From NCBI GenBank assembly GCA_902556205.1, contig CACDVH010000017.1, forward strand, positions 1 to 34,351: 34,351 bases of DNA, read 5' to 3'. The DNA comes from an uncultured Gammaproteobacteria bacterium. Lineage in GTDB: Bacteria > Pseudomonadota > Gammaproteobacteria > PS1 > Pseudothioglobaceae. The notes under the pieces are model-generated. The model was not told where the DNA came from. It saw nothing but the letters and a program-made list of their open reading frames with translations, and ran no database searches. This document shows positions 11,779-34,351 of the stretch, piece by piece. How positions within the stretch are numbered: the stretch's first letter is position 1; the number at the start of each line of letters is the position of its first letter. Made by a program: the position numbers and the translations under genes.

Positions 11779-12147
11779 ATGACTTTAACTTTAGTATATA
11801 GATTAAATGGATTGGTGGGTCTTTTATGGGCTGCATCAATGTGGTTTGGTAGTGAAATGATGGCAGCCTCTTACGGCTGGGAGGTTACCTCTCCAATGAT
11901 TACGATGTCTCAATTTTTAGCGGTGTCTTTCTTATTTATTGCTGTGATTTTTATTATGCTACCGAACTGGACTTCAGAGGAGCAACTAAAGAAAGCAACT
12001 ATCACTCTGATACTTCTTCAAATTATTGCAGTTGCACTTCAGGTCTTTCATCTTACATCAGGTGCCATTCCATCTGGAGGAATGCAGTACTTTGGTATCG
12101 GCTTAGGTATTTTATTCATTATTCTTTTCTACTGGAAATCAAGATAG
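11779..12147 (+). CDS. Small four-helix membrane protein, paralogue 1 (PNWTSE motif)
   Basis: The 122-residue protein has four hydrophobic segments (about 6-24, 40-60, 72-92, 100-118) and ends with a basic WKSR. The motif PNWTSEEQLK at residues 62-71 lies in the loop between segments 2 and 3. It is shared at the identical position with the next gene, so the two are tandem paralogues. A strong AGGAGA ribosome site precedes the ATG by six bases. A good intrinsic terminator follows, so it is a single-gene transcript. I do not recognise a characterised family; a function in the inner membrane is all that can be inferred. Confidence 0.85.
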   Translation: MTLTLVYRLNGLVGLLWAASMWFGSEMMAASYGWEVTSPMITMSQFLAVSFLFIAVIFIMLPNWTSEEQLKKATITLILLQIIAVALQVFHLTSGAIPSGGMQYFGIGLGILFIILFYWKSR

Positions 12148-12273: not shown

Positions 12274-12645
12274 ATGAGTTTATCTTTAATCTTTAGACTT
12301 CAAGCAGCTTTTGCTGCAATATGGGCACTTCAATTAATCTTTGTTCCAGGCATGGTATTTGCTCAATACCAATGGGGATATTCCGCAGAGCTAGTTGCTA
12401 TCGCGCAGGCAACTGGAACAGCTATGGCGGGTCTTGCTATTCTTGCATATGGTATACCTAACTGGACTAGTGAAGATCAACTAAAAGTAGCGGCAAAATC
12501 TTTGGGCACCATTGCAATTTTATTCTTAATTATGCAGCTATATCAAATCTTGATTTCAGGGATGGCTCCGGGTGGCGCTATGGACTGGGTTAGTACACTA
12601 GTTACAGCGCTATTTGCTGTTGGATTTTTCATGAAATCCAAATAA
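12274..12645 (+). CDS. Small four-helix membrane protein, paralogue 2 (PNWTSE motif)
   Basis: This 123-residue protein has the same length, helix spacing and start (M-[TS]-L-[TS]-L) as the gene at 11779. It carries PNWTSEDQLK at residues 62-71 and a basic end MKSK. Outside the motif the two sequences have diverged considerably, so the duplication is not recent. It has its own promoter, a strong AGGAGAG ribosome site and a very strong terminator, which suggests high and independent expression. It is an integral membrane protein of unknown function. Confidence 0.85.
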   Translation: MSLSLIFRLQAAFAAIWALQLIFVPGMVFAQYQWGYSAELVAIAQATGTAMAGLAILAYGIPNWTSEDQLKVAAKSLGTIAILFLIMQLYQILISGMAPGGAMDWVSTLVTALFAVGFFMKSK

Positions 12646-19360: not shown

Positions 19361-20674
19361 TTATCTGTCCTTGCCAACGCCTTTAAATCTTTGTTTGGTG
19401 ACATACCATGCACCTAAATCCAATATCGGCTTTGGTGGGAGCCATTTGGCCTCTTCTATTGAAAGACAGTCACGGACCAGCCCTTCATCATTTCCACAAG
19501 CATAATCAGCCATAGCAAGGCCAAAAGCAGTACCCTTAGTGATACCTGAGCCATTGTAACATCCAGCATAATACAAATTATTTGATAACTTTTTAAAGAT
19601 ATTAGTTTTGTTTGCAGTTACGCCCTCTACACCAGAGTATAGATGCTCAAAATCTACATGGCTTAACTTAGGAAATCTATTGTTAAATGCTTGACGATGA
19701 ATCTCTTGCCTATTCTTAAGCTGCTTATCATCTAATAGATGATGATTACTGTATTCAGCGGTATTTCTTATTGAAATTCTTTTATCCTCAGTAAGTCTGA
19801 CAGTTGCACCGCCGCTATGAAGCGACAAAACACCCCAAGATGGCTCAGTACCAAGCAGTTCAACCTCTTCCTGGTTTAAAACTCGAGTAATACTTCCTGA
19901 CAGGGTAACACCAACCACTCTTTGTTTGAGCTTGCCATTAGCAATAGGCTCATAGTTACAAGCCATAATAATATTCTCAGCCTTCAAGATTGAACTGGGA
20001 GTTTTGATTGTGTTGACTCTACCCTGATCAATCTGCAAAACAGGTGAATTTTCATAGAGCTCCACATTACTTGGAAGGCTATCAGCTAGTCCAAAAACTA
20101 ATTTAGCAGGCTGAATTAGAGCTCCATTTTTAACTTTTACGCCCTTAAGGTACCAATTTGTTCCAAGCTCCATATTGATCTGATCTTTTGAAAGATTTGT
20201 ATGCTCAATTTCTCTCTTTTGAAGATAATCTTCAAACTGCTCACACTCCTCCGATGAGTTTTTATCGGCAGCCATGTGATAGATGCCTGAGTCTTTATAG
20301 TCGCATTCAATTTGACTATTCTCAATAATAGATTTAAGAGAGTTAAGGCCAGTCTGATTAATACGATCAATCCTTTGATAATGCTCTAGCTGACTCTTTT
20401 GATAGCCTCCAGAAAAGTGGCTATGGGCCACAGCATAACCTGAATTTCTTCCAGATGCATTTTGACCAATCTCTCTTGCTTCTAACAAAATAATTTTTTC
20501 ATTAGGATTTAGCTCTGCTAGTCTTCTAGCGCATGAGAGGCCTGTAAATCCAGCACCAATAATGACCCACCTAGCATCTAAATCAGTAGTCAGTCTCTTA
20601 CTTGGCTCTCTAGGATGAATTAAGTCAACCCAACCCTTAGTTTCTTGATCAAAGTTATGATGCATCTGCTTCAC
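19361..20674 (-). CDS. FAD-dependent oxidoreductase, possible L-pipecolate oxidase (AmaA-like)
   Basis: The 437-residue protein has the FAD motif IGAGFTG (39-45), Glu65 (LLEA), GQNASGRNSGYAVAH and a C-terminal GCYNGSGITKGTAFG. The group includes PuuB and Pseudomonas AmaA, which oxidises L-pipecolate to piperideine-6-carboxylate. I favour the AmaA role because of the neighbours: a saccharopine-dehydrogenase-family gene 7 bases upstream and a DpkA-type reductase divergent to both. That is inference from context, and gamma-glutamylputrescine or another amine remains possible. The start could be GTG 20674 or ATG 20665; neither has a strong ribosome site, suggesting coupling to the upstream gene. 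Confidence 0.85.
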   Translation of the reverse strand: MKQMHHNFDQETKGWVDLIHPREPSKRLTTDLDARWVIIGAGFTGLSCARRLAELNPNEKIILLEAREIGQNASGRNSGYAVAHSHFSGGYQKSQLEHYQRIDRINQTGLNSLKSIIENSQIECDYKDSGIYHMAADKNSSEECEQFEDYLQKREIEHTNLSKDQINMELGTNWYLKGVKVKNGALIQPAKLVFGLADSLPSNVELYENSPVLQIDQGRVNTIKTPSSILKAENIIMACNYEPIANGKLKQRVVGVTLSGSITRVLNQEEVELLGTEPSWGVLSLHSGGATVRLTEDKRISIRNTAEYSNHHLLDDKQLKNRQEIHRQAFNNRFPKLSHVDFEHLYSGVEGVTANKTNIFKKLSNNLYYAGCYNGSGITKGTAFGLAMADYACGNDEGLVRDCLSIEEAKWLPPKPILDLGAWYVTKQRFKGVGKDR

Positions 20675-20681
20675 AAAGTGA

Positions 20682-21836
20682 TTAATTCAAATGATCAATT
20701 AAGACAAAGTGATCGCTAATATCTTCAGCCTGATCTAACCATCGACTAACTAGCTTAGTCTGATGAGGTGCAGCAGTTACTCCAGAGGAAATTTCATTCC
20801 CAAGAACAGCCTCAACTGCAAGTGAAACTGAACACGAAACCAGCTGCGCCATAGCACTTCCATTGTCATTTCCAAGAGTATCCATAAGGTATTGCTTGTG
20901 CCACACCACCTCAGTGTCATTTTCAACTTTTAACTCAACGGTTAGAATAACGCGATCAACCTCTCCATCCGTATATGAATATCTATCCCATAAATCATCA
21001 CTGATTTCTTTTAAGCGAGCCTCTGCAATAGAAGCATCCAAAGTATCAACTTCTGAAAAAATGTCTCTCCATGCATTTTTCCAACCTTTGTATCTAAGGG
21101 TTCCTCTTACAAATTGCTTGATCTGGAGTCCGTCATCCATTTGGTATTGCTCTATAAATGGAAGAGAATCACGATTAGGATAAACCTCAAATTCATCCTC
21201 TCCCCACGGCATTGGGAGAGGATAAAGCTCTACTGACTCCCAGGGCTTTGTCACTGTATAAACATCTCCATTTCGAATACTTACAGAGGTTGACATCAAG
21301 GCCTTCAAAACTCCCAGAGGAGACCAGCTAAACTTGTAGCAAAAGTCGTTTGGTACATCACTAAGACCTCCACAATAACTCAGGAAGGAGTGTTCATTAT
21401 CTGCAGAAAATTTAGGTGAATTTTTGTATTCATCTACCAAGGCATGGGACATGCTATGATCAATTCCGGGGTCAAGCCCAACCTCATTCACAAAACACAA
21501 ATTTTTTTCTTTTGCTGCATCATTCAAAGCTCTCATTTCATCTGAGATATATGAGCTTGAAACGAAATGCGCATTGAGAGAAAGGCAAAGCTCTGCAACA
21601 GGAACATGAAAGTTGCCCGGAAGCATCGAAACAACTACATCCCCTGCAGCCACATTTTCCTCAACACTATGAAGTGAAAATGGAAAAACCTGATAATCTC
21701 CTTTCAGGTCAGATAAAGCTTTAATTGCTTTTTCAACAGTTCGGTTGTAAACCAATACTGTGTGTCCATTCTCAATTAGCATCTTTAAGCCTGGAATTGC
21801 TGAAAGTCCAGTTCCAAGCCAATGAATTTTTGCCAT
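20682..21836 (-). CDS. Saccharopine dehydrogenase-family protein (Lys9-like)
   Basis: The 384-residue protein has an N-terminal NAD(P)-binding domain (IHWLGTGLSAIPGLKML). It also has the hallmark NEVGLDPGIDHSMSHAL around residue 118 and SYCGGLSDVPNDFCYKFSWSPLGVLKA, both typical of glutamate-forming saccharopine dehydrogenases. The expected reaction is saccharopine to glutamate plus 2-aminoadipate semialdehyde, which cyclises to piperideine-6-carboxylate. Related proteins act as lysine 6-dehydrogenases or on other substrates, so the exact activity is open. GGAG lies seven bases ahead of the ATG. No lysine-ketoglutarate reductase domain is present in the window. Confidence 0.85.
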   Translation of the reverse strand: MAKIHWLGTGLSAIPGLKMLIENGHTVLVYNRTVEKAIKALSDLKGDYQVFPFSLHSVEENVAAGDVVVSMLPGNFHVPVAELCLSLNAHFVSSSYISDEMRALNDAAKEKNLCFVNEVGLDPGIDHSMSHALVDEYKNSPKFSADNEHSFLSYCGGLSDVPNDFCYKFSWSPLGVLKALMSTSVSIRNGDVYTVTKPWESVELYPLPMPWGEDEFEVYPNRDSLPFIEQYQMDDGLQIKQFVRGTLRYKGWKNAWRDIFSEVDTLDASIAEARLKEISDDLWDRYSYTDGEVDRVILTVELKVENDTEVVWHKQYLMDTLGNDNGSAMAQLVSCSVSLAVEAVLGNEISSGVTAAPHQTKLVSRWLDQAEDISDHFVLIDHLN

Positions 21837-22166
21837 TATTACTCCATAATTATTTAATTTACAAGATATATTTTTTACACTATTTCAAGGGTAAAGCTAT
21901 TATTGAATAATAAAAAATTAACTATTTATATTAATCTAAATTCTGTCATAGAAAGGTTTCCTCTTGGAAAAAAAGTTCAAACAAAGCATTTGTTTCACCA
22001 GATTAAACATGGCTATGGTTATTCTTGAAATTTTTATGCTGTGATTTTTAATTATCCAAAACATATCATCATTTTTTTGATACTTAGCTAATGAATTGCT
22101 TATACTTATCCTTTTAAACAATTAACTTTCCTAGAAAGCAATTTTTCGAATAAGAGGATTATTTTA
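21837..22166. other. 330-base divergent regulatory region without genes
   Basis: This very AT-rich spacer separates the saccharopine-dehydrogenase-like gene from dpkA. It holds a perfect inverted repeat AAACAAA-GCA-TTTGTTT (21979-21995), a smaller one TTTCC-TCTT-GGAAA, and the dpkA promoter at 22077-22106. It is by far the longest gene-free stretch in the window and probably carries operators for both directions. I see no convincing coding sequence in it. Confidence 0.6.
22077..22106 (+). promoter_or_regulatory. Sigma-70-type promoter for the dpkA-like gene
   Basis: TTGATA (22077-22082), an 18-base spacer and TATACT (22101-22106) form a good promoter. The start near 22113 gives a leader of about 54 bases, with AAGAGGATT as the ribosome site. 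Confidence 0.55.
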
Positions 22167-23171
22167 ATGACTTCAAAAACAACCGATCTTAGCCTTGATG
22201 AAATTTTTAATTTAGCTAAATCTGCCCTAATTAATAATGGTGCAAACGAAGAAAATGCTGATGCCGTTGCGTCAACAGTAACTAATGCCGAACGAGATGG
22301 CTCAGTTTCTCATGGTTTGTTTCGTATTCCTGGATATATTAAAGCCCTTCAAAGCAATAAAGTAGATGGATCCGCTGTGCCAGAAATTGAAGAGATTACG
22401 CCTGTAATATTAAGGTGTGATGCTCAAAATGGTTTTGCACCACTTGCACATAAATATGGTATCGAAAAATTAATTAATGCAGCAAATGCTTTCGGAATTG
22501 CAGGATTATCGATTCAACGCTGCCATCATTTTGCAGCACTATGGCCTGAGGTTGAGGCAATTAGTGATCAGGGGCTTGTTGGATTGACATCTGTTTCGTA
22601 TATGCCAGGAGTTGCTCCTTCTGGAGGAACAACTGCATTATTTGGAACAAATCCAATAGCATTCTCTTGGCCTAGACCTGGTAAGAATCCAATAGTCTTT
22701 GACATGGCCACTGCTTCAATGGCAAAAGGAGAAATTCAAATTGCTGCTAGGGATGGACACTCAGTCCCCCTAGGAACTGGACTTTCTCCATCAGGCGAAT
22801 TGACCACTGATGCATCAGAAATTGATAAAGGTGTATTACTCCCTTTTGGAGGTCATAAAGGTTCTGTCATTGCACTAATGATTGAATTATTATCAGGCCC
22901 ACTTGTAGGTGAAACTTTCTCTTATGAAACAAAGGAACGTGACAATGGAGATGGAGGTCCTGCTCAAGGAGGTCAGTTTATTCTTGCTATGTCACCAGAA
23001 ATTATTTCTGGAAAAGATACCTCTGCACAGACTGAAGATTTTCTAAAAAAATACAATGAAATAGAGGGCACACGTCTTCCCGGTGAAAGACGTCATGAAA
23101 ATAGGAAAGATCTTGGGAAAAGGCAAGTAAATAGTGCTTTAGTTAATACAATCAAAGAATTGATTATTTAA
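22167..23171 (+). CDS. dpkA: Ldh2-family cyclic imino acid reductase (DpkA-like)
   Basis: DpkA reduces delta1-piperideine-2-carboxylate to L-pipecolate and delta1-pyrroline-2-carboxylate to L-proline with NADPH. The 334-residue protein belongs to the malate/L-sulfolactate dehydrogenase-like (Ldh2) fold. Several stretches match Pseudomonas DpkA as I recall it: ERDGSVSHGLFRIPGY, RCHHFAALWPEVE, LFGTNPIAF, NPIVFDMAT-SMAKG-IQIAAR, LLPFGGHKGS and RLPGERR. These are more specific than the generic malate/lactate/ureidoglycolate members. Divergent partners with saccharopine-dehydrogenase-like and pipecolate-oxidase-like genes support a lysine/pipecolate role; use in hydroxyproline or proline metabolism is the main alternative. 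The gene is preceded by a good promoter. Confidence 0.82.
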   Translation: MTSKTTDLSLDEIFNLAKSALINNGANEENADAVASTVTNAERDGSVSHGLFRIPGYIKALQSNKVDGSAVPEIEEITPVILRCDAQNGFAPLAHKYGIEKLINAANAFGIAGLSIQRCHHFAALWPEVEAISDQGLVGLTSVSYMPGVAPSGGTTALFGTNPIAFSWPRPGKNPIVFDMATASMAKGEIQIAARDGHSVPLGTGLSPSGELTTDASEIDKGVLLPFGGHKGSVIALMIELLSGPLVGETFSYETKERDNGDGGPAQGGQFILAMSPEIISGKDTSAQTEDFLKKYNEIEGTRLPGERRHENRKDLGKRQVNSALVNTIKELII

Positions 23172-23190
23172 AAGTAGCATTCAAGACTGA

Positions 23191-24630
23191 TTAATTTTTG
23201 ACGACAAATAGGTCCATAAACTCATTGACAGCTGTGTTTTTAATTGTCTCATTATTGATACATAATGAGTAAATTTTGTTAGTTTGATCTGGTGAGTAAG
23301 TATTTTTAAGGCTATTAAGAAATTTCATTTCTAATAGTGGGATTCCCTCTTGACGACGCTGGCGATGCCCGATCGGGTATTCTACTTCAACTTTCTGAGT
23401 TTTAGTTCCATCATTAAAGAAGATCTGTACTGCGTTAGCAATAGATCTTTTATCTTCTGCTAGGTAGTCTTTTGAATATCTTTTATTTTCAATCAAAAAC
23501 ATCTTATCACGAAGCTCATCAATTAAAGGATTATCTTGATGAAAGCTATCTTCATAAAAGTCAGCGACCAAATCACCTTTGATTAATGCGACTGCAAGCA
23601 TATATTGCATACAATGATCACGGTCAGCAGGATTATCTAGGGTACCAGTTTTGTCAATAATTCTGAGTGCTGATTCATGGGTTGTGACCTCAATCTTTTC
23701 AATATTGTACAGCTTATCCTTAATTTCTGGATAAAGTAACACTGCACACTCTACCGCAGTTTGCGCATGGAATTCAGCTGGAAAGGATATCTTGAAAAGA
23801 ATATTCTCCATTACATAGGAGCCATATTGCCTTGAAAAACTAAACTCTCTACCTTTAAAACTTACATCATAGAAGCCCCAATCTGGTGCGCTCAGAACAG
23901 AAGGTAATCCCATCTCACCATTCATTGTCATCATAGATAAGCGAACTGCGCGCGATGTTGCATCACCTGCAGCCCATGATTTTCTTGAACCTGCATTAGG
24001 CGCATGCCTATAGGTTCGAAGTGAGGAGCCATCAACCCAGGCTTGAGATAATGCATCAATAATTTGGTCTCGATTACCACCTAACATATGAGTTGCTACG
24101 GCCGTACTCGCCACTCTTACAAGTAAAACATGATCCAAGCCCACTTTATTAAAGCTATTTTCAAGTGCAAGAATACCTTGAATTTCATGAGCTTTCACCA
24201 TGTATTCAAGAACATCTTGAATATTTAATGGTGATTTATGATTAGCAATATTCACACGCGAAATATAATCACTGAGCGCCATAATGGCACCTAAATTGTC
24301 TGATGGATGGCCCCATTCTTCGGCCAACCAAGTATCGTTAAAATCTAACCAGCGAACTATTGCTCCTATATCCCAAGCAGCCTTAACAGGATCAAGCTCA
24401 TATGACCTTCCAAATACTCTCGCACCATTTTCTACAGTTGTACCAGGAACTATTGGACCTAGATGTCTTGTACAGCTTGGAAATTTTAAAGCCATTAGAC
24501 CGCACCCTATAGTATCTATTAGGCAATTTCTAGCAGTGTTTAGAGCCTCCTCGGATTCAACTTTGTAGTCAATTACATAGTCTGCTATATCTTGCAGAAC
24601 TTGATCTGCAATTACTCTATCTGCTTTCAT
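23191..24630 (-). CDS. prpD: 2-methylcitrate dehydratase (MmgE/PrpD family)
   Basis: PrpD dehydrates 2-methylcitrate to 2-methylaconitate, the second step of the methylcitrate cycle for propionyl-CoA. The 479-residue length is close to the E. coli enzyme (483). Family features are the N-terminal ARNCLIDTIGCGLMAL, FGRSYELDPVKAAWDIGAIVRWLDFNDTW, EEWGHPSDNLGAI and SFPAEFHAQTAVECA. It lies 3 bases behind prpC with its own AGAGGAT ribosome site, so it is the last gene of the long minus-strand unit. MmgE/PrpD proteins include other dehydratases, but the prpB-prpC context makes this assignment firm. It converges on dpkA with 19 bases between stops. Confidence 0.95.
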   Translation of the reverse strand: MKADRVIADQVLQDIADYVIDYKVESEEALNTARNCLIDTIGCGLMALKFPSCTRHLGPIVPGTTVENGARVFGRSYELDPVKAAWDIGAIVRWLDFNDTWLAEEWGHPSDNLGAIMALSDYISRVNIANHKSPLNIQDVLEYMVKAHEIQGILALENSFNKVGLDHVLLVRVASTAVATHMLGGNRDQIIDALSQAWVDGSSLRTYRHAPNAGSRKSWAAGDATSRAVRLSMMTMNGEMGLPSVLSAPDWGFYDVSFKGREFSFSRQYGSYVMENILFKISFPAEFHAQTAVECAVLLYPEIKDKLYNIEKIEVTTHESALRIIDKTGTLDNPADRDHCMQYMLAVALIKGDLVADFYEDSFHQDNPLIDELRDKMFLIENKRYSKDYLAEDKRSIANAVQIFFNDGTKTQKVEVEYPIGHRQRRQEGIPLLEMKFLNSLKNTYSPDQTNKIYSLCINNETIKNTAVNEFMDLFVVKN

Positions 24631-24633
24631 GTG

Positions 24634-25761
24634 TTATCCTCTTTGCTCTATTGGTATGACTTTCTGAAGACTTGGCCCTATATAATCAGCGTTTGGTCTA
24701 ATTATACGATTGTTTTCCCTTTGTTCAAAAATATGAGCACACCAACCCGTTATTCTTGAGAGAACAAATATTGGGGTAAAAAGCTTGGTTGGAATTTTCA
24801 TGAACTCATAAGTTGAAGCGTGATAAAAATCAGCATTAGCAAATAGATTTTTCTCTCTGCGCATCACAGCCTCAACTCTCTCTGACACATTATATAAGTG
24901 CTTATCATTGACCTCTATGGATAATTTTTTTGACCACTCTTTTATAATCTCATTGCGTGGATCAGACTCCGTATAAACAGCGTGTCCAAAACCCATCACA
25001 AGTTGTTTTTGCGAGAGCATTTTAAGTAATTCCTCCTCTGCTATATCGGGATTATTCCACTGGGATAACATTGCACTTGCTGCTTCGTTAGCGCCTCCAT
25101 GTAGAGGGCCTCGTAAGGTTCCGATAGCGCTTGTAACGGCAGAATGAATATCTGATAGCGTTGAAGCGCAAACCCTTGCTGCAAAGGTGGAGGCATTAAA
25201 TTCATGTTCAGCGTATAAAATCAAAGAAACACTCATGACTTGGTTATGAAGTTCGCTAGCCTTTTGACCATGCAAAAGATGTAAAAAATGACCACCGATT
25301 GTGTCATCATCAGTTTCGGTATCAATCCTCTTTCCATGATGCGAATACTGATACCAATAGCTTAATATTGATGGAAAAGCACTTAACATTCGATCAGCAT
25401 GATCGGTTTGATTCAAGAAACTTTCTTCTTGCTCTAAATTACCTAAAACTGAACAGCCTGTCCTTAGAACATCCATTGGGTGAGCGGTTTTAGGAATGCA
25501 TTCAAGTGTACTTCTTATTTCGGGCTGCAATCCTCTTAATGATTTGAGTTTTTCTATATATTCTTTTAGTTCTTGGGAGTTAGGTAATTTCTTATGCAAC
25601 AAAAGAAAAGCGACCTCCTCAAAAGTTGTATTTTTCGCCAAATCAACTACATCATAACCACGATAAGTCAGACCAGAACCCGTTACACCCACTGTACATA
25701 TTGAAGTCTCTCCAGCGCTTTGCCCTCTAAGGCCAGCACCACCCATTTTTTTTCCACTCAT
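24634..25761 (-). CDS. prpC: 2-methylcitrate synthase
   Basis: PrpC condenses propionyl-CoA with oxaloacetate to 2-methylcitrate. The 375-residue protein has the typical N-terminus GGAGLRGQSAGETSICTVG followed by LTYRGYD. The citrate-synthase catalytic triad appears as His221 (LHGGANEAA), His260 (GFGHAVY) and Asp311 (ADFYHAS). The short length and N-terminal signature separate it from the house-keeping citrate synthase GltA. Its ATG overlaps the prpB stop codon by one base (TAATG), indicating translational coupling. Confidence 0.95.
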   Translation of the reverse strand: MSGKKMGGAGLRGQSAGETSICTVGVTGSGLTYRGYDVVDLAKNTTFEEVAFLLLHKKLPNSQELKEYIEKLKSLRGLQPEIRSTLECIPKTAHPMDVLRTGCSVLGNLEQEESFLNQTDHADRMLSAFPSILSYWYQYSHHGKRIDTETDDDTIGGHFLHLLHGQKASELHNQVMSVSLILYAEHEFNASTFAARVCASTLSDIHSAVTSAIGTLRGPLHGGANEAASAMLSQWNNPDIAEEELLKMLSQKQLVMGFGHAVYTESDPRNEIIKEWSKKLSIEVNDKHLYNVSERVEAVMRREKNLFANADFYHASTYEFMKIPTKLFTPIFVLSRITGWCAHIFEQRENNRIIRPNADYIGPSLQKVIPIEQRG

Positions 25762-26642
25762 TATTTATTCTCCTCTTTAAATAACCTATCAAGCTGTTGC
25801 TCATATTGATGATAGTTAAGAAAATCATATAACTCTTCCCTTGTTTGCATGTTATCTAAAACATTATGTTGATGACCATCCTCTAAGATATGCCTATAGA
25901 CATTAAGAGCTGCATTGCTCATGGCTCTGAAGGCACTAAGGGGATAGAGAACCATATCAACGCCAGCCTCTGAAAGCTCATCTTTGCTAAACAATGGCGT
26001 TTGACCAAATTCGGTAATATTTGCCAGAATTGGTACACTTAAGGAATCAGAAAACTCTCGATATTGCTCAATAGAATTTAATGCTTCAGGAAATATCATA
26101 TCAGCACCAGCTTCAGCGAATGCCTGAGCTTTTTCAATTGCTGATTGCATGCCCTCTATCGCCAAAGCATCAGTTCTTGCCATAATGACAAAATCTGAAT
26201 CTGTTTTAGCATCTACTGCGGCTTTAATTCGATCAATCATTTCATTGGTACTCACGATTGACTTATTAGGGCGATGGCCACAACGTTTTTGGGACACCTG
26301 ATCTTCAATATGAATAGCTGCAACATTGCTCTTTATCATTTCTTGAACACAACGAGCAATATTAAATGCTCCTCCCCAGCCAGTATCTGCATCTACCAAT
26401 AACGGTAGAGAAGTAACCTGTGTAATTCTTTTAGCATCTTCAAGAACATCGGCTAGAGATGTTATACCAAGATCTGGAACCCCAAGAGAGGAAGCAGCTA
26501 CCCCTCCACCTGACAAATAGATTGATTGGTGTCCAACTTTTTCAGCCATAATTGCACTGAAGGCGTTAACTGTACCCACAATTTGCAATGGCTTAGTTTC
26601 GTTAACTAAGTTTCTAAATTTCTTTCCACTACTCTCCATCAT
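25761..26642 (-). CDS. prpB: 2-methylisocitrate lyase
   Basis: PrpB splits 2-methylisocitrate into pyruvate and succinate, finishing the methylcitrate cycle. The 293-residue protein of the isocitrate-lyase/PEP-mutase family has the active-site loop KRCGHR at 119-124, the metal-site DADTGWG at 84-90, HIEDQ at 111-115 and MARTDA. The KRCGHR sequence marks the lyases rather than the mutases. It starts with two adjacent ATG codons and lies 33 bases behind the TetR regulator gene, without a visible promoter or terminator in between. Confidence 0.95.
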
Positions 26643-26675
26643 ACTTTTAGTCTCTCAATTGACCTAACACTTTTA

Positions 26676-27335
26676 CTATGGATTCAAACCTACGCTGCGA
26701 AGAACTAAATCTATGACCTGTTGTTTTTTTTCTTCAAACTCAGAATCTGTTAGTTTTTTTCCATTATTCAAAATCATGACTTGATAATCAAAGTCGGCGT
26801 AGTGTTGAGTAGTCGCCCAAATCATATAAAGAAGGGTATGTGCATCCCCTACATTAACAATTTTTTCTAGCTCAACCCATCTATTAATGGATTGAACACA
26901 AGAATCAACCCATTTTTTTAATTTTGAGGATAAGATCTCTTCCATTTCAGGAGCTCCACTTATAATCTCATTTGCCCAAACTTTTGATCCAAAAGGTCTC
27001 GTCCTTGACAAATCCATTTTAGCCCCAACATAATACCTAATGGCCTCCCTTGGCTCATCAAATGTATTAAATGTATCAGCAGCTTTCATCCAGTCAACCA
27101 ATATACTTTCGAGAACACATCGATAAAGATTCAATTTAGTATAAAAATAATAATGAATGTTTGATTTTGGGAGTTTTGCAGTATCTGCAATTTGTTTTGT
27201 AGTGGAACCTTTCAGGCCATGCTTTGCAAATACTTTTTCTGCAGCAGCTAAAATAATCAGCTCATTTTCTTCGCGAATAGTCTCCTTACTCCGGGGACTG
27301 CGACGTACTTTAGCTGCATCAGTTAAATTACCCAT
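26676..27335 (-). CDS. TetR-family regulator, RutR-like
   Basis: This 219-residue regulator has an N-terminal helix-turn-helix (about 44-65, STTKQIADTAKLPKSNIHYYF). The ligand domain matches E. coli RutR: the run MIWATTQHYADF (171-182) closely follows RutR's MIWASTQHYADF, which includes residues lining the uracil pocket (Trp173 and Gln177 here). RutR is a repressor released by uracil or thymine and binds TTGACCAnnTGGTCAA; a perfect copy lies at 30040-30055 ahead of preT. The gene sits between preA and prpB in the same transcript, so it is probably autoregulated and controls pyrimidine breakdown. AAGGA is its ribosome site. Confidence 0.88.
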   Translation of the reverse strand: MGNLTDAAKVRRSPRSKETIREENELIILAAAEKVFAKHGLKGSTTKQIADTAKLPKSNIHYYFYTKLNLYRCVLESILVDWMKAADTFNTFDEPREAIRYYVGAKMDLSRTRPFGSKVWANEIISGAPEMEEILSSKLKKWVDSCVQSINRWVELEKIVNVGDAHTLLYMIWATTQHYADFDYQVMILNNGKKLTDSEFEEKKQQVIDLVLRSVGLNP

Positions 27336-27353
27336 TCACTATCCTTCATTGAC

Positions 27354-28655
27354 TCATGAAACTTTCAAAGGATTATTTTCATGAGTGGTCCAATCAGCAG
27401 GCTCTGAAGTAATCACTTTCCCCGTTCTAGGATCCGTGCCACTTTCCATAGCAACCATTGTAATACAATCAACAATAGGGCAAACACTTACACAAAGATT
27501 ACACCCAACACATTCAGTATCATCGACTGTAAATACTCTATTGCCTTCATCATTGGAATAGTTAATTGCCTGATGGGAAGTATCTTCACAAACAATATGG
27601 CATCGCCCACATTTTATACACTTCTCTTGATCAATAACTGCCTTATCAACATGATTTAGATTTAAAAATTTCCAATCAGTAACCGATGGCACTGCTTTAC
27701 CAATAAGCTCATCCACTGAATTCATTCCTTTTTCATCTAAAAAGTTACTCAATCCAGTTTTCATATCTTCAACAATCTTAAAACCATAGACCATAGCGGC
27801 AGTACAAACCTGCACATTGCTGGCGCCTAGTGCCAAGAAATCTACTGCATCTTTCCAGGTGGTGACACCTCCAATACCAGATATTGGTAGATTTTTTGTT
27901 TTTTCATTTCGCGCAATTTCTGCAACCATATTGAGTGCAATTGGTTTGACTGCCTCACCGCAGTAACCTCCATGTGTGCCCATACCACCCGTAGTTGGAA
28001 ACATGGTTAAACTATCATAATCAACCCTCATAATTGAATTTATGGTATTGATTAATGACACTGCATCTGCACCGCCTTCAAGACATGCTTCAGCTGGGTA
28101 GATGACATCAGTAATATTTGGGGTAAGTTTTACAATGACAGGAACAGTTGCATATTTTTTACACCACTCAGTTGCTTGCTTGATATATTCAGGGACTTGT
28201 CCAACTGCTGCTCCCATTCCTCTCTCTGACATACCATGCGGACAACCAAAATTAAGCTCAAATCCATCAATACCTGTATCTTCGATAATAGGAATATGCT
28301 TTGCCCAGGACTCCTCATTCATTGGAAACATGACAGATGCAACTAAAGCTCTATCTGGCCAATCTCTTTTAACTTGGCGCATCTCCTTAAGATTGACTTG
28401 AAATGGTCGATCCGTAATTAACTCAATGTTATTAAAACCAATGACTCGACGATCATTACTCATCATTGTGCTGTATCTTGGGCCATTAACATTAACGATA
28501 TGAGGATCTTCACCCAAGGTTTTCCATGAAACCCCTCCCCAGCCTGCTTCAAAGGCACGATTAACATTATATGCCTTGTCAGTAGGTGGAGCTGAAGCCA
28601 ACCAAAAAGGATTGGGTGACTTTATTCCCAAAAAATTACTTGTTAAATCTGCCAT
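27354..28655 (-). CDS. preA: NAD-dependent dihydropyrimidine dehydrogenase, subunit PreA
   Basis: PreA is the catalytic subunit that reduces uracil or thymine to the 5,6-dihydro form, the first step of reductive pyrimidine breakdown. The 433-residue protein has an FMN barrel resembling dihydroorotate dehydrogenase, with the active-site Cys138 in NFGCPHGMSERGMG. A C-terminal ferredoxin domain carries two 4Fe-4S motifs (Cys346, 349, 352, 356 and Cys382, 385, 388, 392). The GCPHG sequence is closer to the eukaryotic enzyme's SCPHG than to E. coli PreA's SCPQM. It follows preT with one base between stop and start. Confidence 0.95.
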   Translation of the reverse strand: MADLTSNFLGIKSPNPFWLASAPPTDKAYNVNRAFEAGWGGVSWKTLGEDPHIVNVNGPRYSTMMSNDRRVIGFNNIELITDRPFQVNLKEMRQVKRDWPDRALVASVMFPMNEESWAKHIPIIEDTGIDGFELNFGCPHGMSERGMGAAVGQVPEYIKQATEWCKKYATVPVIVKLTPNITDVIYPAEACLEGGADAVSLINTINSIMRVDYDSLTMFPTTGGMGTHGGYCGEAVKPIALNMVAEIARNEKTKNLPISGIGGVTTWKDAVDFLALGASNVQVCTAAMVYGFKIVEDMKTGLSNFLDEKGMNSVDELIGKAVPSVTDWKFLNLNHVDKAVIDQEKCIKCGRCHIVCEDTSHQAINYSNDEGNRVFTVDDTECVGCNLCVSVCPIVDCITMVAMESGTDPRTGKVITSEPADWTTHENNPLKVS

Positions 28656-28656
28656 A

Positions 28657-30021
28657 TTATGCTCCTTGCGTTAGCGTTTCGTTTATTGAAATTGCTGCTA
28701 GTTTGCCATCTTGAACTGCTGAAACTGTTAGATTATCGCCATCAAGAATGCAATCTCCACCAGCCCAAACTTTAGTTAATGAAGTTTTACGATTCTTATC
28801 AACAACTATTCTTCCTTTTTCTAGCTCTAAGTTATTATCAGCCAAACCCTCGGTAACCAATTTCTGTCCAATTGCCTTAAACACAACATCTGCTTTCAAT
28901 GTAAGGCTTTCTCCAGTTGCCTTTATACTTCCATCGTTGTGTGATTTCATAACGTCAAATTCCATTGCAGAGACATTACTTTCATTAGATATCAGCTGTT
29001 TAGGTGATAAATGATACTGAATTTGAACATCATGCTTTTTTGCCAAAGCCTGCTCATATTCACTCGCTGCCATTGCATTCTTACCTCTTCTATAGGCAAT
29101 AGTAACTTGCTCAGCACCCAGTAATTTGCTTTGAACAGCAATGTCTATTGCTGTCATGCCTCCGCCAACAACAACAATATTTTTCCCAACCATAAGTTCA
29201 TCTTTATTGCTGGTTTGTCTCAAATTAGCTATATACTCAACCGCATCAATAACGCCCGAAATATTTTCATTGTCAAGATTTAGTTGATTGACCGTACCTA
29301 AGCCACACCCTAAAAATACAGCATCGAATTGCTTTTGAAGATCGTCAAGAGTGATTTGTTTTCCTAGCTCCATCCCAGTTTCAATATTTATGCCACCTAT
29401 ATCTAGAATGTAATCAAGCTCTTGTTGTGCAAAATCATGAGTAGATTTATAAGCTGCAATCCCATACTCATTCAAACCCCCTAATTTATCTTTAGCATCA
29501 TATACCGTTATATTGTGACCCAAGACTGATAGACGATGCGCACAAGATATTCCAGCAGGCCCTGCTCCAACAACCGCAATAGACTTTCCAGTATCTTTTT
29601 TTCTTGAAAATAACTTTACGCCATTATCTAATACTGAATCTGTTGCATATCTTTGCAATAATCCGATTTCAACTGGCTTATCTTCATGATCATTTCGAAC
29701 ACATGCTTGCTGACACAACTCCTCAGTTGGGCAGTCTCTAGCACACATCCCGCCAAAAATATTTTCAGATAAAATTTTCTCTGCTGCTCCCGTTAAATTA
29801 TCACTCCTGATACTTTGTATAAAACCTGGAACATCAATATCTGATGGGCAAGCCTTTGTGCAAGGAGCGTCATAGCAGAAATAGCATCGATCAGCTTCAA
29901 TTAATGCCTCTATTTGAGTTAATGGAGCATGAAGATCTGAAAAATTATCTTCAATCTCTTTTTTACTGAGGCGATGTGACTGAATATTCACTCCCTCACT
30001 TTTTAGTTTGTTATTACTCAT
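28657..30021 (-). CDS. preT: NAD-dependent dihydropyrimidine dehydrogenase, subunit PreT
   Basis: PreT passes electrons from NAD(P)H through FAD and Fe-S clusters to PreA. The 454-residue protein has an N-terminal cluster domain with Cys46, 49, 54, 58 and Cys93, 97, 103, 107, then the FAD motif VGAGPAG (151-157). The NAD motif VGGGMTAIDIA lies around residue 285, and AGGDC near the end. This is the GltD-like architecture of the N-terminal half of mammalian dihydropyrimidine dehydrogenase. A strong ribosome site GGAGG lies five bases ahead of the ATG. Directly upstream is a perfect RutR-type operator, so preT opens a regulated transcription unit. Confidence 0.95.
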   Translation of the reverse strand: MSNNKLKSEGVNIQSHRLSKKEIEDNFSDLHAPLTQIEALIEADRCYFCYDAPCTKACPSDIDVPGFIQSIRSDNLTGAAEKILSENIFGGMCARDCPTEELCQQACVRNDHEDKPVEIGLLQRYATDSVLDNGVKLFSRKKDTGKSIAVVGAGPAGISCAHRLSVLGHNITVYDAKDKLGGLNEYGIAAYKSTHDFAQQELDYILDIGGINIETGMELGKQITLDDLQKQFDAVFLGCGLGTVNQLNLDNENISGVIDAVEYIANLRQTSNKDELMVGKNIVVVGGGMTAIDIAVQSKLLGAEQVTIAYRRGKNAMAASEYEQALAKKHDVQIQYHLSPKQLISNESNVSAMEFDVMKSHNDGSIKATGESLTLKADVVFKAIGQKLVTEGLADNNLELEKGRIVVDKNRKTSLTKVWAGGDCILDGDNLTVSAVQDGKLAAISINETLTQGA

Positions 30022-30039
30022 ATTTCCTCCGAAAAATAT

Positions 30040-30055
30040 TTGACCATTTGGTCAA
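30040..30055. promoter_or_regulatory. Perfect RutR-type operator
   Basis: TTGACCATTTGGTCAA is an exact match to the RutR consensus TTGACCAnnTGGTCAA described for E. coli. It lies 18 bases upstream of the preT ATG and just downstream of a minus-strand -10-like TATAAA (30058-30063), so a bound repressor would cover the transcription start. A RutR-like gene is three genes downstream. Confidence 0.88.
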
Positions 30056-30057
30056 GT

Positions 30058-30063
30058 TTTATA
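30058..30063 (-). promoter_or_regulatory. -10 element for preT
   Basis: On the minus strand TATAAA precedes the RutR-type palindrome. No good -35 is seen in the AT-rich sequence upstream. The predicted start lies inside the operator. Confidence 0.4.
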
Positions 30064-30094
30064 TGTAGTTAAACAATTAAAAATTAATTAAATC

Positions 30095-31543
<1,449 letters not shown>

Positions 31544-31565
31544 CTACAAGAAATTAGATTTTATA

Positions 31566-32573
31566 TTATGATCCAAACGCAGCATTCCAGACATCGTGAG
31601 TCCAAGCTCCAGCTGGTTGTCCAGTAATTACTGGATCAGAATCACTACCAAGCAAAGTATCAACAGTACGCTGGTAATCGTCAACATTTAATTTACCGCC
31701 ATTTGCAGTAAGTTTATTAACCTCGCCCATCATACGACGTTGATGCTTTTCAGTTTGAGCACCACTCATATCATATTCAAGTACGATATCGGCAGCAGCA
31801 TCGGAATTACTTGAAGCCCACTCCCAACCCTTCATACTAGCACGAAGGAAACGCGCAGCTTTATCAACAAAGGCAGCATCGTTTAGATTTTCTTCTAATA
31901 CATATAAACCATCTTCAAGTGTTGATACACCTTGGTCTTCGTAGGAGAAAACAACTAGCTCATCGGCTGAAAGTCCGCCATCAATAACTTGCCAATATTC
32001 ATTGTAAGTCATGGTTGACACGCAATCGGCTTGCTTTTGAAGAATAGGCTCTATTCCCCAGCCTTGCTTCAATACTGTCACTCCACCTGCACTTCCATCA
32101 GTCGCCATATTAAGCTTACTCATCCAGCTCAGGAATGGATACTCATTACCATAGAACCAAACTCCTAGAGTCTTATCTGAGAAGTCAGAAGGCGAACTTA
32201 TGCCCGAATCTTTACGACATGTAAGCATCATTCCAGAGTTTTTAAATGGCTGTGCTATGTTGACAAGATTAAGTCCTTTTTCTCTAGAGGCCAAAGCTGC
32301 TGGCATCCATTCAATAAGAATATCTGCACCACCACCAGCGATAACTTGAGGAGGAGCAATATCTGGACCACCGGATTTAATCGTTACATCTAGTCCTTCA
32401 TCGTCATAGTAACCTTTTTCCAATGCAACATAATAGCCTGCAAATTGAGCCTGAGTTACCCACTTCGTTTGAAGGGTAAATTTATCACCTGCATGAGAAT
32501 TAAAGCTCATAGCTAGAAGCATAGTAGAGCAAATTGCAGCTAATATAGTTTTACTTTTATATATTTTCATCAT
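31566..32573 (-). CDS. NMT1/THI5-type ABC substrate-binding protein, probably for pyrimidines
   Basis: The 335-residue protein has a signal peptide (hydrophobic TILAAICSTMLLAMSF, cleavage near SHA-GD). It then has LQTKWVTQAQFAGYYVALEKGYYDDEGLDV, the signature of the NMT1/THI5 family that binds pyrimidines such as thiamine precursors, and GGADILIEWMPAAL. It delivers its ligand to the permeases encoded just upstream. Location beside dihydropyrimidinase and preTA suggests uracil, thymine or their dihydro forms, by context only. Two adjacent ATG codons occur; the second (32570) is better spaced from the AGGAG site. Confidence 0.9.
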   Translation of the reverse strand: MMKIYKSKTILAAICSTMLLAMSFNSHAGDKFTLQTKWVTQAQFAGYYVALEKGYYDDEGLDVTIKSGGPDIAPPQVIAGGGADILIEWMPAALASREKGLNLVNIAQPFKNSGMMLTCRKDSGISSPSDFSDKTLGVWFYGNEYPFLSWMSKLNMATDGSAGGVTVLKQGWGIEPILQKQADCVSTMTYNEYWQVIDGGLSADELVVFSYEDQGVSTLEDGLYVLEENLNDAAFVDKAARFLRASMKGWEWASSNSDAAADIVLEYDMSGAQTEKHQRRMMGEVNKLTANGGKLNVDDYQRTVDTLLGSDSDPVITGQPAGAWTHDVWNAAFGS

Positions 32574-32611
32574 TTCTCCTTTATTTTAAAAATAATAGTA
32601 CTCACTCTAAA

Positions 32612-33745
32612 TTAACTTTTTCGCATCGATGGATGCCAGAAAGTTAATTTTCTTTCCAAAAGAGCAAACACTCCATAAAACATCGAACCAGTAACAGCAG
32701 CAACCGCAATTGTTGCCCATACAATATCGATATTCATTCGGCCAACTTCTGCCGAAATTCTAAATCCCATTCCTACAATGGGTGTTCCAAAAAATTCTGC
32801 CACTATAGCTCCAATCATAGCGAAAGTTGAGTTAATTTTCAATGCGTTAAGAATAAATGGCATCGCATTTGGAAGACGCAAACTAAAAAGTTCTCGCCAG
32901 TAACTCGAAGCATAAGTGTGTAATAAATCTCGATCAATCCTATCAGTCTCGTTGAGACCACCTAAGGTATTTACCATCATTGGGAAAAAAGTCATTATGG
33001 CAACGACAGCTGCTTTGGACTGCCAATCAAATCCAAACCACATTACCATTATTGGAGCCATTCCAATAATTGGTATCGCGCTAAAGAAGTTTCCAATTGG
33101 AATTAATCCACGCCTTAAAAATGGAATTTTATCGGCTGCAATTGCAACAAGAAATCCTGTTCCACTTCCCATAATAAAACCAGGAATTGCAGAGCGAACA
33201 AAAGTTTGATAGAAATCTGCAAATAAAGTTGCGCCAAAACCATCAAATACTTGCCAAATAAGACTCGGTGCAGGTAACAATACCTGTGGAACGGACATAC
33301 CTATAGTAATAACCTCCCATAGAAAAAATATCCATACACCAAATAAAACGGGAATCACTATATTAAGAGAAAACGTTATTAATTTATTTTTTGCCTCTAA
33401 AGCTGATAGTTGAACTAAGTTATTCCACGTTAGAAACCACAATGCACTTACCAAAAACCAAGCATCTAGACCCATCACAACACCTTGATCGAATGAGTGT
33501 ATTAAATTTAATACAGACCAAGCCCCAGAAAATAAAGCTATAAAACAAATTGCTAAAAGAAGCAATCCTTGTTGACGAATGATAAAAAATAATAAACCGA
33601 CAGTTGCAATAGTCAGCACAATAATAGGATTAAGCTCATAAACATTAGTTGCGTCAAGCTGTAACCAAATAAATGAAGCGATTGAAAAAATAAGACATAG
33701 CAATCCACTTAAGGGACGCGAACTTATTATTGCCAGGAAATTCAT
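32612..33745 (-). CDS. ABC transporter permease with extended N-terminal membrane region
   Basis: The 377-residue protein has a typical BPD-type permease domain in its C-terminal part, including the EAA-like loop SSYWRELFSLRLPNAMPFILNAL that docks the ATPase and PQVLLPAPSLIWQVFDGF at its start. About 130 extra N-terminal residues form four or so additional hydrophobic segments not found in the usual 250-residue permease. It overlaps the upstream permease gene by 4 bases (ATGA), showing coupled translation. With that permease it probably forms the heterodimeric channel of the NMT1-type importer. Confidence 0.9.
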   Translation of the reverse strand: MNFLAIISSRPLSGLLCLIFSIASFIWLQLDATNVYELNPIIVLTIATVGLLFFIIRQQGLLLLAICFIALFSGAWSVLNLIHSFDQGVVMGLDAWFLVSALWFLTWNNLVQLSALEAKNKLITFSLNIVIPVLFGVWIFFLWEVITIGMSVPQVLLPAPSLIWQVFDGFGATLFADFYQTFVRSAIPGFIMGSGTGFLVAIAADKIPFLRRGLIPIGNFFSAIPIIGMAPIMVMWFGFDWQSKAAVVAIMTFFPMMVNTLGGLNETDRIDRDLLHTYASSYWRELFSLRLPNAMPFILNALKINSTFAMIGAIVAEFFGTPIVGMGFRISAEVGRMNIDIVWATIAVAAVTGSMFYGVFALLERKLTFWHPSMRKS

Positions 33746-34351
33746 ATTTGCAGCCCCATACGATTATTAACTGCGCGCTCCATTCTTCCAACGATAGTCA
33801 CTAGGGTTGCAGAAATCACTGAAGCAGTAATCAAAGCAGCCCAAATAAGATTCGTTTGGCCATAATATGAGCCAGATAATAGGCGAGCACCAAGACCTCC
33901 TTGAGCACCAGCAGGAAGCTCTGCTACAATTGCCCCAACAACGCTCAGAGCAATAGCTACTTTTAAACTGGCAAATAAATAAGGAATCGATGCAGGAAGG
34001 CGTAATTTCCAAAAAACCTCTGCTTTTGATGCTGAATAACTGCTCATAAGGTCTACCAAGATAATACTTGGTGACCTTAAACCTTTAACCATACCAACAA
34101 CCACAGGAAAAAAACAAAGATAGGTTGAGATCGTTGCTTTTGGAACTAAGCCAATAATACCCATTGAACCTAACACAACAACAATCATAGGAGCTATTGC
34201 AAGAATTGGAATAGTTTGTGATGCAATGATCCATGGCATTAAGGTTCGATCCAGTGCTGCCACATAAACAATACCTACAGACAACACAATACCAAGAAAG
34301 GTGCCCATTACAAAGCCAACCATCGAAGATGATAAAGTCACTCCAGAGTGA
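33742..34351 (-). CDS. ABC transporter permease, 5' end beyond the window
   Basis: The frame is open to the window edge, so the N-terminus is missing; a GTG at 34341 is in frame but is not likely to be the true start. The visible 203 codons span most of a BPD-type permease domain, with several membrane segments and the EAA loop SASKAEVFWKLRLPASIPYLFASL. The gene overlaps the next permease by 4 bases. The ATPase of the system is not in this window and is expected upstream (beyond 34351). Confidence 0.9.
   Translation of the reverse strand, partial: HSGVTLSSSMVGFVMGTFLGIVLSVGIVYVAALDRTLMPWIIASQTIPILAIAPMIVVVLGSMGIIGLVPKATISTYLCFFPVVVGMVKGLRSPSIILVDLMSSYSASKAEVFWKLRLPASIPYLFASLKVAIALSVVGAIVAELPAGAQGGLGARLLSGSYYGQTNLIWAALITASVISATLVTIVGRMERAVNNRMGLQI

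Follow-up and report, generated by a model that had tools for sequence, protein, structure and literature searches.

Why should the genes of the methylcitrate cycle lie directly behind those of reductive pyrimidine breakdown, with the gene of a RutR-like regulator in between? The question is raised by contig CACDVH010000017.1 (assembly GCA_902556205.1) of an uncultured gammaproteobacterium of the Pseudothioglobaceae, whose 34,351 nucleotides, referred to here as the window, are the entire contig C17 of a 1.65-Mb assembly that is 91.8% complete (genome label G000). On the minus strand, at 23191-30021, the genes preT, preA, a rutR-like gene, prpB, prpC and prpD follow one another with intergenic gaps of 1, 18, 33, -1 and 3 bases in the list of open reading frames (ORFs), so that the coordinates bear out the single strand and the gaps given in a first-pass annotation of this DNA. 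The fate of the methyl-bearing carbon of thymine has been less studied in bacteria than that of uracil, and the first-pass annotation had read the arrangement as a possible thymine-to-succinate unit. That interpretation is supported by the gene order and by an operator, although the methylcitrate cycle yields pyruvate too. Judging from the gene identities, the operator, their conservation and co-occurrence, all of which are given by the sequence, it is likely that the six genes form a RutR-controlled operon that takes the propionyl-CoA of thymine to pyruvate and succinate. Both modules are already known; their join is probably the new element.

Enzymes, regulator and operator

PreTA, dihydropyrimidine dehydrogenase, is identified by a PreA (27354-28655) above its equivalog score (NF006183, 682 bits; cut-off 335) and by the adjoining PreT (28657-30021), the NAD-side subunit, which is above no equivalog cut-off in family profile scoring and carries Fer4_20 and pyridine-nucleotide (Pyr_redox_2) domains. 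The methylcitrate-cycle enzymes are all above curated cut-offs: PrpB, methylisocitrate lyase (25761-26642; NF008455, 517 bits, cut-off 353), PrpC, 2-methylcitrate synthase (24634-25761; NF009006, 621 bits, cut-off 550), and PrpD, 2-methylcitrate dehydratase (23191-24630; NF006943, 825 bits, cut-off 575; TIGR02330, 817 bits, cut-off 458). In this respect the locus is like prpBCDE-type operons, from which it differs in having a RutR-like regulator and neither prpE nor a dedicated prp regulator; the window genome gives no match to NF007815 at E 1e-150 or better. The earlier remark that no PrpR-type regulator is nearby holds for the 10 proteins profiled at 20682-32573, among which there is no PrpR-type activator, the rest of the window not having been scored for PrpR. 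That PrpC could be the sole citrate synthase of the cell, which would argue against inducible expression, is ruled out, since the window genome encodes a second citrate synthase elsewhere.

The gene between the two modules (26676-27335, minus strand) encodes a TetR-family protein in which the TetR_N and TetR_C_3 (YcdC-like) domains are both above gathering scores. Its best model is that of RutR (TIGR03613), at 152 bits; since this is below the equivalog cut-off of 368, the protein is named RutR-like, not RutR. It is 36% identical to Escherichia coli RutR across 181 aligned residues, and five uracil contacts of that protein, W77, Y97, W167, Q171 and Q179 (PMC10891134), were checked and are all kept, as W82, Y102, W173, Q177 and Q185. 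Two lysines of the E. coli DNA-binding motif, K52 and K62, are kept as well, and the five contacts and two lysines are invariant across an alignment of 13 relatives. The previous labelling of the gene as RutR-like agrees with its domains, nearest model and uracil contacts.

Directly upstream of preT, on the same strand, lies hydA (30095-31534), encoding dihydropyrimidinase, the next step of the pathway (TIGR02033, 595 bits; cut-off 393). The 73-base spacer between the two genes (30022-30094) contains a perfect palindrome, TTGACCATTTGGTCAA, at 30040-30055, 18 bases ahead of the start codon of preT, an element that the first-pass annotation did not name. It matches exactly the sequence TTGACCAnnTGGTCAA, which we take to be the consensus of RutR binding sites, and is regarded here as a predicted RutR-type operator. 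The pattern had no match in 100 shuffles of the window, and 30040-30055 is the sole site with 0-1 mismatch in the window's assembly. The upstream region of E. coli carA carries TTGACCATTTGGTCCA, with one mismatch, so that 15 of 16 bases are shared with the site at 30040-30055; in the E. coli rutR-rutA region the best site has 3 mismatches and is equalled by 26 of 200 shuffles. Relatives were searched in 58 genomes, 29 of them in the genus and including the window's own, and preA was found at E 1e-80 or better in 10 congeneric genomes and in G049. Nine of these 10 congeneric genomes have the operator at 0-1 mismatch before preT, and the tenth, G011, has it at 2 mismatches; across the 10, no block of the hydA-preT spacer is better conserved than the palindrome with the bases that follow it. 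No second operator at 0-1 mismatch (14-base core) was found before prpB, mmsA or the transporter in the scanned stretches, and a recurrent 2-mismatch match is located inside hydA.

The element was also followed outside the genus, in an alignment scan with PreA of 84,980 species genomes that rendered at least 590 confirmed stretches, of which the best 80 were kept (26 of them 20 kb or shorter). Of the 78 loci from outside the genus, 10 contain the half-site TGACCA around a 2-base centre; by this count it ranks joint fifth among 4,096 half-sites and first among the 180 of equal composition, the next reaching 4. The 11 sites are all at most 180 bases from the point where a rutR-, hydA-, aminotransferase- or transporter-like gene is predicted to start, and some of them fall inside overlapping predicted ORFs.

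It could also be the case that the palindrome is only the intrinsic terminator of hydA and that the regulator acts elsewhere. It scored as terminator-like on both strands, being one of the 8 terminator-like matches of the region (4.9, sd 3.1, in shuffles), and at least five T stand after it in every one of the 10 congeneric spacers. However, its stem has just 3 G-C pairs, the same palindrome lacks a five-T run in 12 of 14 stretches from other pyrimidine loci, the match to the carA site would be left aside, and its conservation is notable among copies that diverge from those of the window at approximately 30-44% of third codon positions. A function as terminator only is not favoured on these grounds and appears very improbable; because of the T run, however, the palindrome could weakly end hydA transcription as well as serve as the predicted operator.

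Gene order and the rutR-prpB junction

Synteny in related genomes had been proposed as a check on the unit, and the result is in its favour. The rutR-like gene and prpB are adjacent in 8 of the 10 congeneric preA genomes (G000, G002, G003, G006, G008, G017, G022 and G028), all with the order hydA-operator-preT-preA-rutR-prpB-prpC(-prpD), the contig of G006 ending in prpC. Since this order is kept in relatives with the third-position divergence mentioned above, it is more than chance. The two exceptions look derived. In G011, an ldh2 gene stands directly after preTA-rutR, and a separate contig, which begins inside prpB, carries prpBCD (84-91% identical) together with a prpE-like gene. In G016, no prp genes follow preTA-rutR; the sequence at L058:4585-4647 agrees with the leader between rutR and prpB in the neighbouring G017, up to and including the ribosome-binding site, and then departs from it, and on this sequence evidence the remnant is a deletion scar. 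The prp genes group G011 with G017 (96% support) and the pre genes group G011 with G016 and G017 (94%); several other nodes have weak support (38-77%), and G016, with no prp genes of that type, has no row in the prp tree. As both trees put G011 with G017, the joined state is probably ancestral and relocation of the prp genes in G011 is the favoured order of events, so that independent joining in several lineages is not needed.

The 33-base gap between the regulator gene and prpB (26643-26675, minus strand) contains the prpB leader, the start of which is its only conserved part in relatives, with no conserved block beyond it. It has no terminator-like match, which confirms for this gap the earlier statement that no terminator is visible. 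Its length is 31-40 bases in 5 of the 8 joined genomes and 163 bases in the other three (G002, G008 and G022). At L053:9691-9853, L055:10826-10988 and L060:7032-7194, an A+T-rich insert adds about 123 bases to the gap of three close relatives. Promoter-like matches in the region number 18, fewer than the 23.2 (sd 4.7) of shuffles, a total at chance level. The low number of such matches and a gap conserved only at the start of the leader argue for read-through from preT into prpB, although an internal promoter may exist: a consensus match at 26791-26763 (9 of 12) lies inside the rutR-like gene, about 120 bases before prpB. As to whether prpB has a separate promoter, the conserved operator before preT and the lack of further conservation in the gap point to none, whereas the 163-base gaps and the promoter match point to one.

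The steps between PreTA and propionyl-CoA are found upstream. In G028, G002 and G016, the same strand carries genes for a binding protein of the Bmp type, an ATPase with two domains, two permeases, a cytosine deaminase and an omega-aminotransferase, then mmsA, the gene of a nitrilase-family hydrolase, those of an ABC transporter, and hydA. The order in G008 is that of G028, except that its binding-protein gene was read in two pieces; G003 lacks the transporter and has aminotransferase-mmsA-hydrolase-hydA; and in G006 the middle part of the cluster is on another contig. Family scores were obtained from single representatives, mmsA and the hydrolase from G022 and G003 and the rest from G028. The cytosine deaminase scores 723 bits (NF005748), the omega-aminotransferase 673 bits (NF052567; the solved structures closest to it are omega-amino acid- and beta-alanine-pyruvate transaminases), and MmsA 654 bits in G022 and 657 bits in G003 (TIGR01722); the hydrolase reaches none of the curated cut-offs of NCBIfam, and its nearest solved structures are a CG3027 protein and beta-ureidopropionases. 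The mmsA gene is at this upstream place in 7 of the 10 genomes (G002, G003, G006, G008, G016, G022 and G028), and in G000, G011 and G017 the contig ends before the position is reached. The transaminase and mmsA steps that had been assumed in the first reading of the locus are thus encoded just upstream in relatives.

In the window, hydA is followed upstream by an ABC transporter (31566-34351, minus strand), with an NMT1-type binding protein and two BPD_transp_1 permeases, the second truncated by the contig end; its substrate is presumed to be a pyrimidine. In relatives, an ATPase, the beta-ureidopropionase-like hydrolase and mmsA continue from these permeases. Of the further steps of a putative full thymine route beside preTA, hydA is seen in the window, and the beta-ureidopropionase-like hydrolase, the aminotransferase and mmsA are seen in relatives; in the window genome these last three probably lie beyond the contig end, at the same place. 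In addition to the NMT1-type importer beside hydA, relatives have a second, Bmp-type importer adjoining the cytosine deaminase, and the two are probably uptake systems for pyrimidine bases or nucleosides.

In the scheme that we infer for co-transcription, ligand, sense of control, thymine induction and flux, one promoter with the RutR operator between hydA and preT would drive preT-preA-rutR-prpB-prpC-prpD. As long as no pyrimidine base is at hand, the operon, regulator gene included, would be kept off by the RutR-like repressor; binding of uracil or thymine would free the DNA, and PreTA, for the first reductive step, and PrpBCD would be switched on together. Thymine would then be converted to dihydrothymine by PreTA, to ureidoisobutyrate by HydA and to 3-aminoisobutyrate by beta-ureidopropionase, and this to methylmalonate semialdehyde by the omega-aminotransferase and to propionyl-CoA by MmsA. 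PrpC, PrpD, an aconitase (presumed) and PrpB would take propionyl-CoA to pyruvate and succinate.

Sources of propionyl-CoA and competing explanations

The co-occurrence of the two modules extends beyond the joined genomes. All 10 congeneric genomes with preA have prpBC(D), versus 2 of the 19 without it (G001 and G026; Fisher 3.3e-6, a value to be taken as a guide only in view of the kinship of the species and the many partial assemblies). The search for PrpD covered all 29 genomes and that for citrate-synthase-type genes 19, so that an acnD-type set like that of G001 may be missed in the others. The two preA-less sets are of the other prp version: G001 has a conventional-looking GntR-prpB-prpC-acnD-prpF cluster (L189:5892-12506; AcnD, TIGR02333, 1702 bits; PrpF, TIGR02334, 706 bits), and in G026 prpBCD comes after an AraC-type gene. 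G016 also has another prpBCD, 54-62% identical to that of the window, near an Lrp-type gene; in all three congeneric genomes holding it, the other prp version is outside the pyrimidine locus. The mmsB gene of the valine route is confined, within the genus, to G001, which lacks preA, and G026, and since these are the two preA-less genomes with prp genes, each route to propionyl-CoA, from valine or from thymine, seems to be paired with its own methylcitrate set.

Valine as the source in the preA genomes was rejected, since mmsB was found in none of the 10 at E 1e-60. Propionate uptake is not favoured either, since prpE-like matches of at least 739 bits are found only in G001, G011 and G026, with a partial match (624 bits, with an internal stop) in G023; the joined genomes have only matches of 582-594 bits, taken for acetate-CoA ligases, or none at E 1e-150 (G000 and G006). 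All prpE-like matches are below the PrpE cut-off of 955. Methylmalonyl-CoA mutase was found in none of the 29 congeneric genomes.

These results bear on the possibility that prpBCD serves a general disposal of propionyl-CoA, from 2-oxobutyrate, odd-chain fats or acrylate, and has its own promoter, so that its adjacency to the pyrimidine genes would have little regulatory meaning. The restriction of prpBC(D) mostly to preA genomes, the lack of mmsB in them, the location of the other prp version outside the pyrimidine locus and the absence of a conserved block beyond the prpB leader all speak against such a function, which would be consistent with the longer gaps of three genomes, the promoter match inside the rutR-like gene and the location of the prp genes of G011 beside a prpE-like gene. 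We consider general disposal unlikely.

A further alternative is that the operon is mainly for the use of uracil and cytosine as sources of nitrogen or carbon, prpBCD clearing the minor propionyl-CoA that arises from occasional thymine. The products of uracil are processed by the same enzymes as those of thymine, as is known in general for these families, and the cytosine deaminase in the cluster of relatives would feed uracil. Uracil yields no propionyl-CoA, however, so that the retention of prpBCD in most preA genomes would be left unexplained. This explanation is rather unlikely; it is close to that of a thymine operon, from which it differs only in weighting, and the relative flux is beyond what the sequence can tell.

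Several points weigh against a RutR-controlled thymine operon. Apart from the equivalog score of the regulator, the T run after the palindrome, the 163-base gaps, the promoter match inside the rutR-like gene and the two genomes in which rutR and prp genes are unlinked (G011) or the latter are missing from the locus (G016), operator matches at 0-1 mismatch number 51 over the 58 genomes versus 53 for a reversed control pattern (sums of forward columns). The pattern is therefore not enriched, and only its position and exactness are informative, single matches elsewhere meaning little. Outside the preA genomes, the stretches fetched for matches in G001, G005, G026, G032, G035, G040, G052, G027, G033 and G034 contain no BLAST-recognised pyrimidine genes. 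Moreover, no mmsA/MMSDH was found above the cut-off in the window genome, where the contig ends first; many of the assemblies of relatives are partial, and the species do not count as independent; and 2-oxobutyrate, acrylate and odd-chain fats may be other sources of propionyl-CoA.

Known systems and significance

Outside the genus, the join was not seen. Among the best 80 of the at least 590 PreA stretches, prp genes are near preA in 2, both of this genus (L106, which is G006:C106, and L107, which overlaps G022:C41), and in none of the other 78. These reductive pyrimidine (Pyd) clusters of Proteobacteria are otherwise like the locus described here: preTA is with hydA in 59 of the 80 and with a rutR-like gene in 56 (the two of the genus included), and RutR-type palindromes are found near cluster genes; they differ from it, in the 78 loci, in having no prp gene nearby. 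In an even sample of 369 genomes of the class, 11 have PreA, 117 have PrpB and 18 have a RutR-like protein, with PreA and PrpB together in 9 and a RutR-like protein and PrpB together in 8. Only in the window's genome are PreA or the RutR-like protein and PrpB neighbours; in the others they are either more than 250 kb apart or not on one contig, and maps around the other 10 PreA genes, some reaching only a few kb on one side, show no prp gene.

The E. coli RutR regulon shares with this locus the regulator family, the uracil contacts, a nearly identical carA operator and a homologous PreTA; E. coli preTA differs in its surroundings, its neighbours being yeiS and mglC and not rutR or prp genes. 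The known targets of E. coli RutR are rut, carAB and others (PMC6790063). In Cupriavidus necator, according to the portions used of another report, propionyl-CoA made by MmsA from valine is disposed of by the methylcitrate pathway, and a methylcitrate mutant does not grow on valine (PMC6572756); that system is alike in sending MmsA-derived propionyl-CoA to the methylcitrate pathway and different in its source, valine, and those portions describe no join with pyrimidine genes. In the titles and abstract openings of open-licence literature, no operon joining RutR, methylcitrate and pyrimidine genes was found, and the join is likely undescribed.

Two other features of the window are recorded here. 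The convergent neighbour of prpD (22167-23171) encodes an Ldh_2-family dehydrogenase, and in G003 a gene for trans-3-hydroxy-L-proline dehydratase (L054:12808-13839; NF047722, 597 bits, cut-off 550) comes after the Ldh_2 gene, which suggests that 19361-23171 belongs to hydroxyproline breakdown. The adjacent ORFs at 11779-12147 and 12274-12645 encode small membrane-like proteins without Pfam match and with 31% mutual identity, and are a tandem duplicate.

These results indicate that a group of small-genome, probably marine bacteria of the SUP05/PS1 lineage have the start of base breakdown and the removal of the three-carbon product expected from thymine in one apparent operon under one switch, a join not found in the other bacteria sampled. 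They offer a concrete answer for the carbon of thymine: propionyl-CoA would enter the methylcitrate cycle under control of the very repressor that governs the onset of base breakdown. Whether the cycle is a dedicated thymine arm in the genus we hold to be an evenly balanced matter: prpBCD, parted from its own regulator and from prpE, would have come under a uracil/thymine-sensing repressor, and thymine from DNA would be turned into pyruvate, succinate and ammonium without methylmalonyl-CoA mutase, in cells lacking the valine route. If the proposal is true, the regulon of RutR-type proteins would extend to propionyl-CoA disposal, and the arrangement operator-preTA-rutR-prpBCD would be a genomic marker for the use of dissolved thymine carbon without the B12-dependent mutase. 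It would also be a case of regulatory capture with a visible history, the join being kept in most species, unlinked in one and deleted, with a scar, in another.

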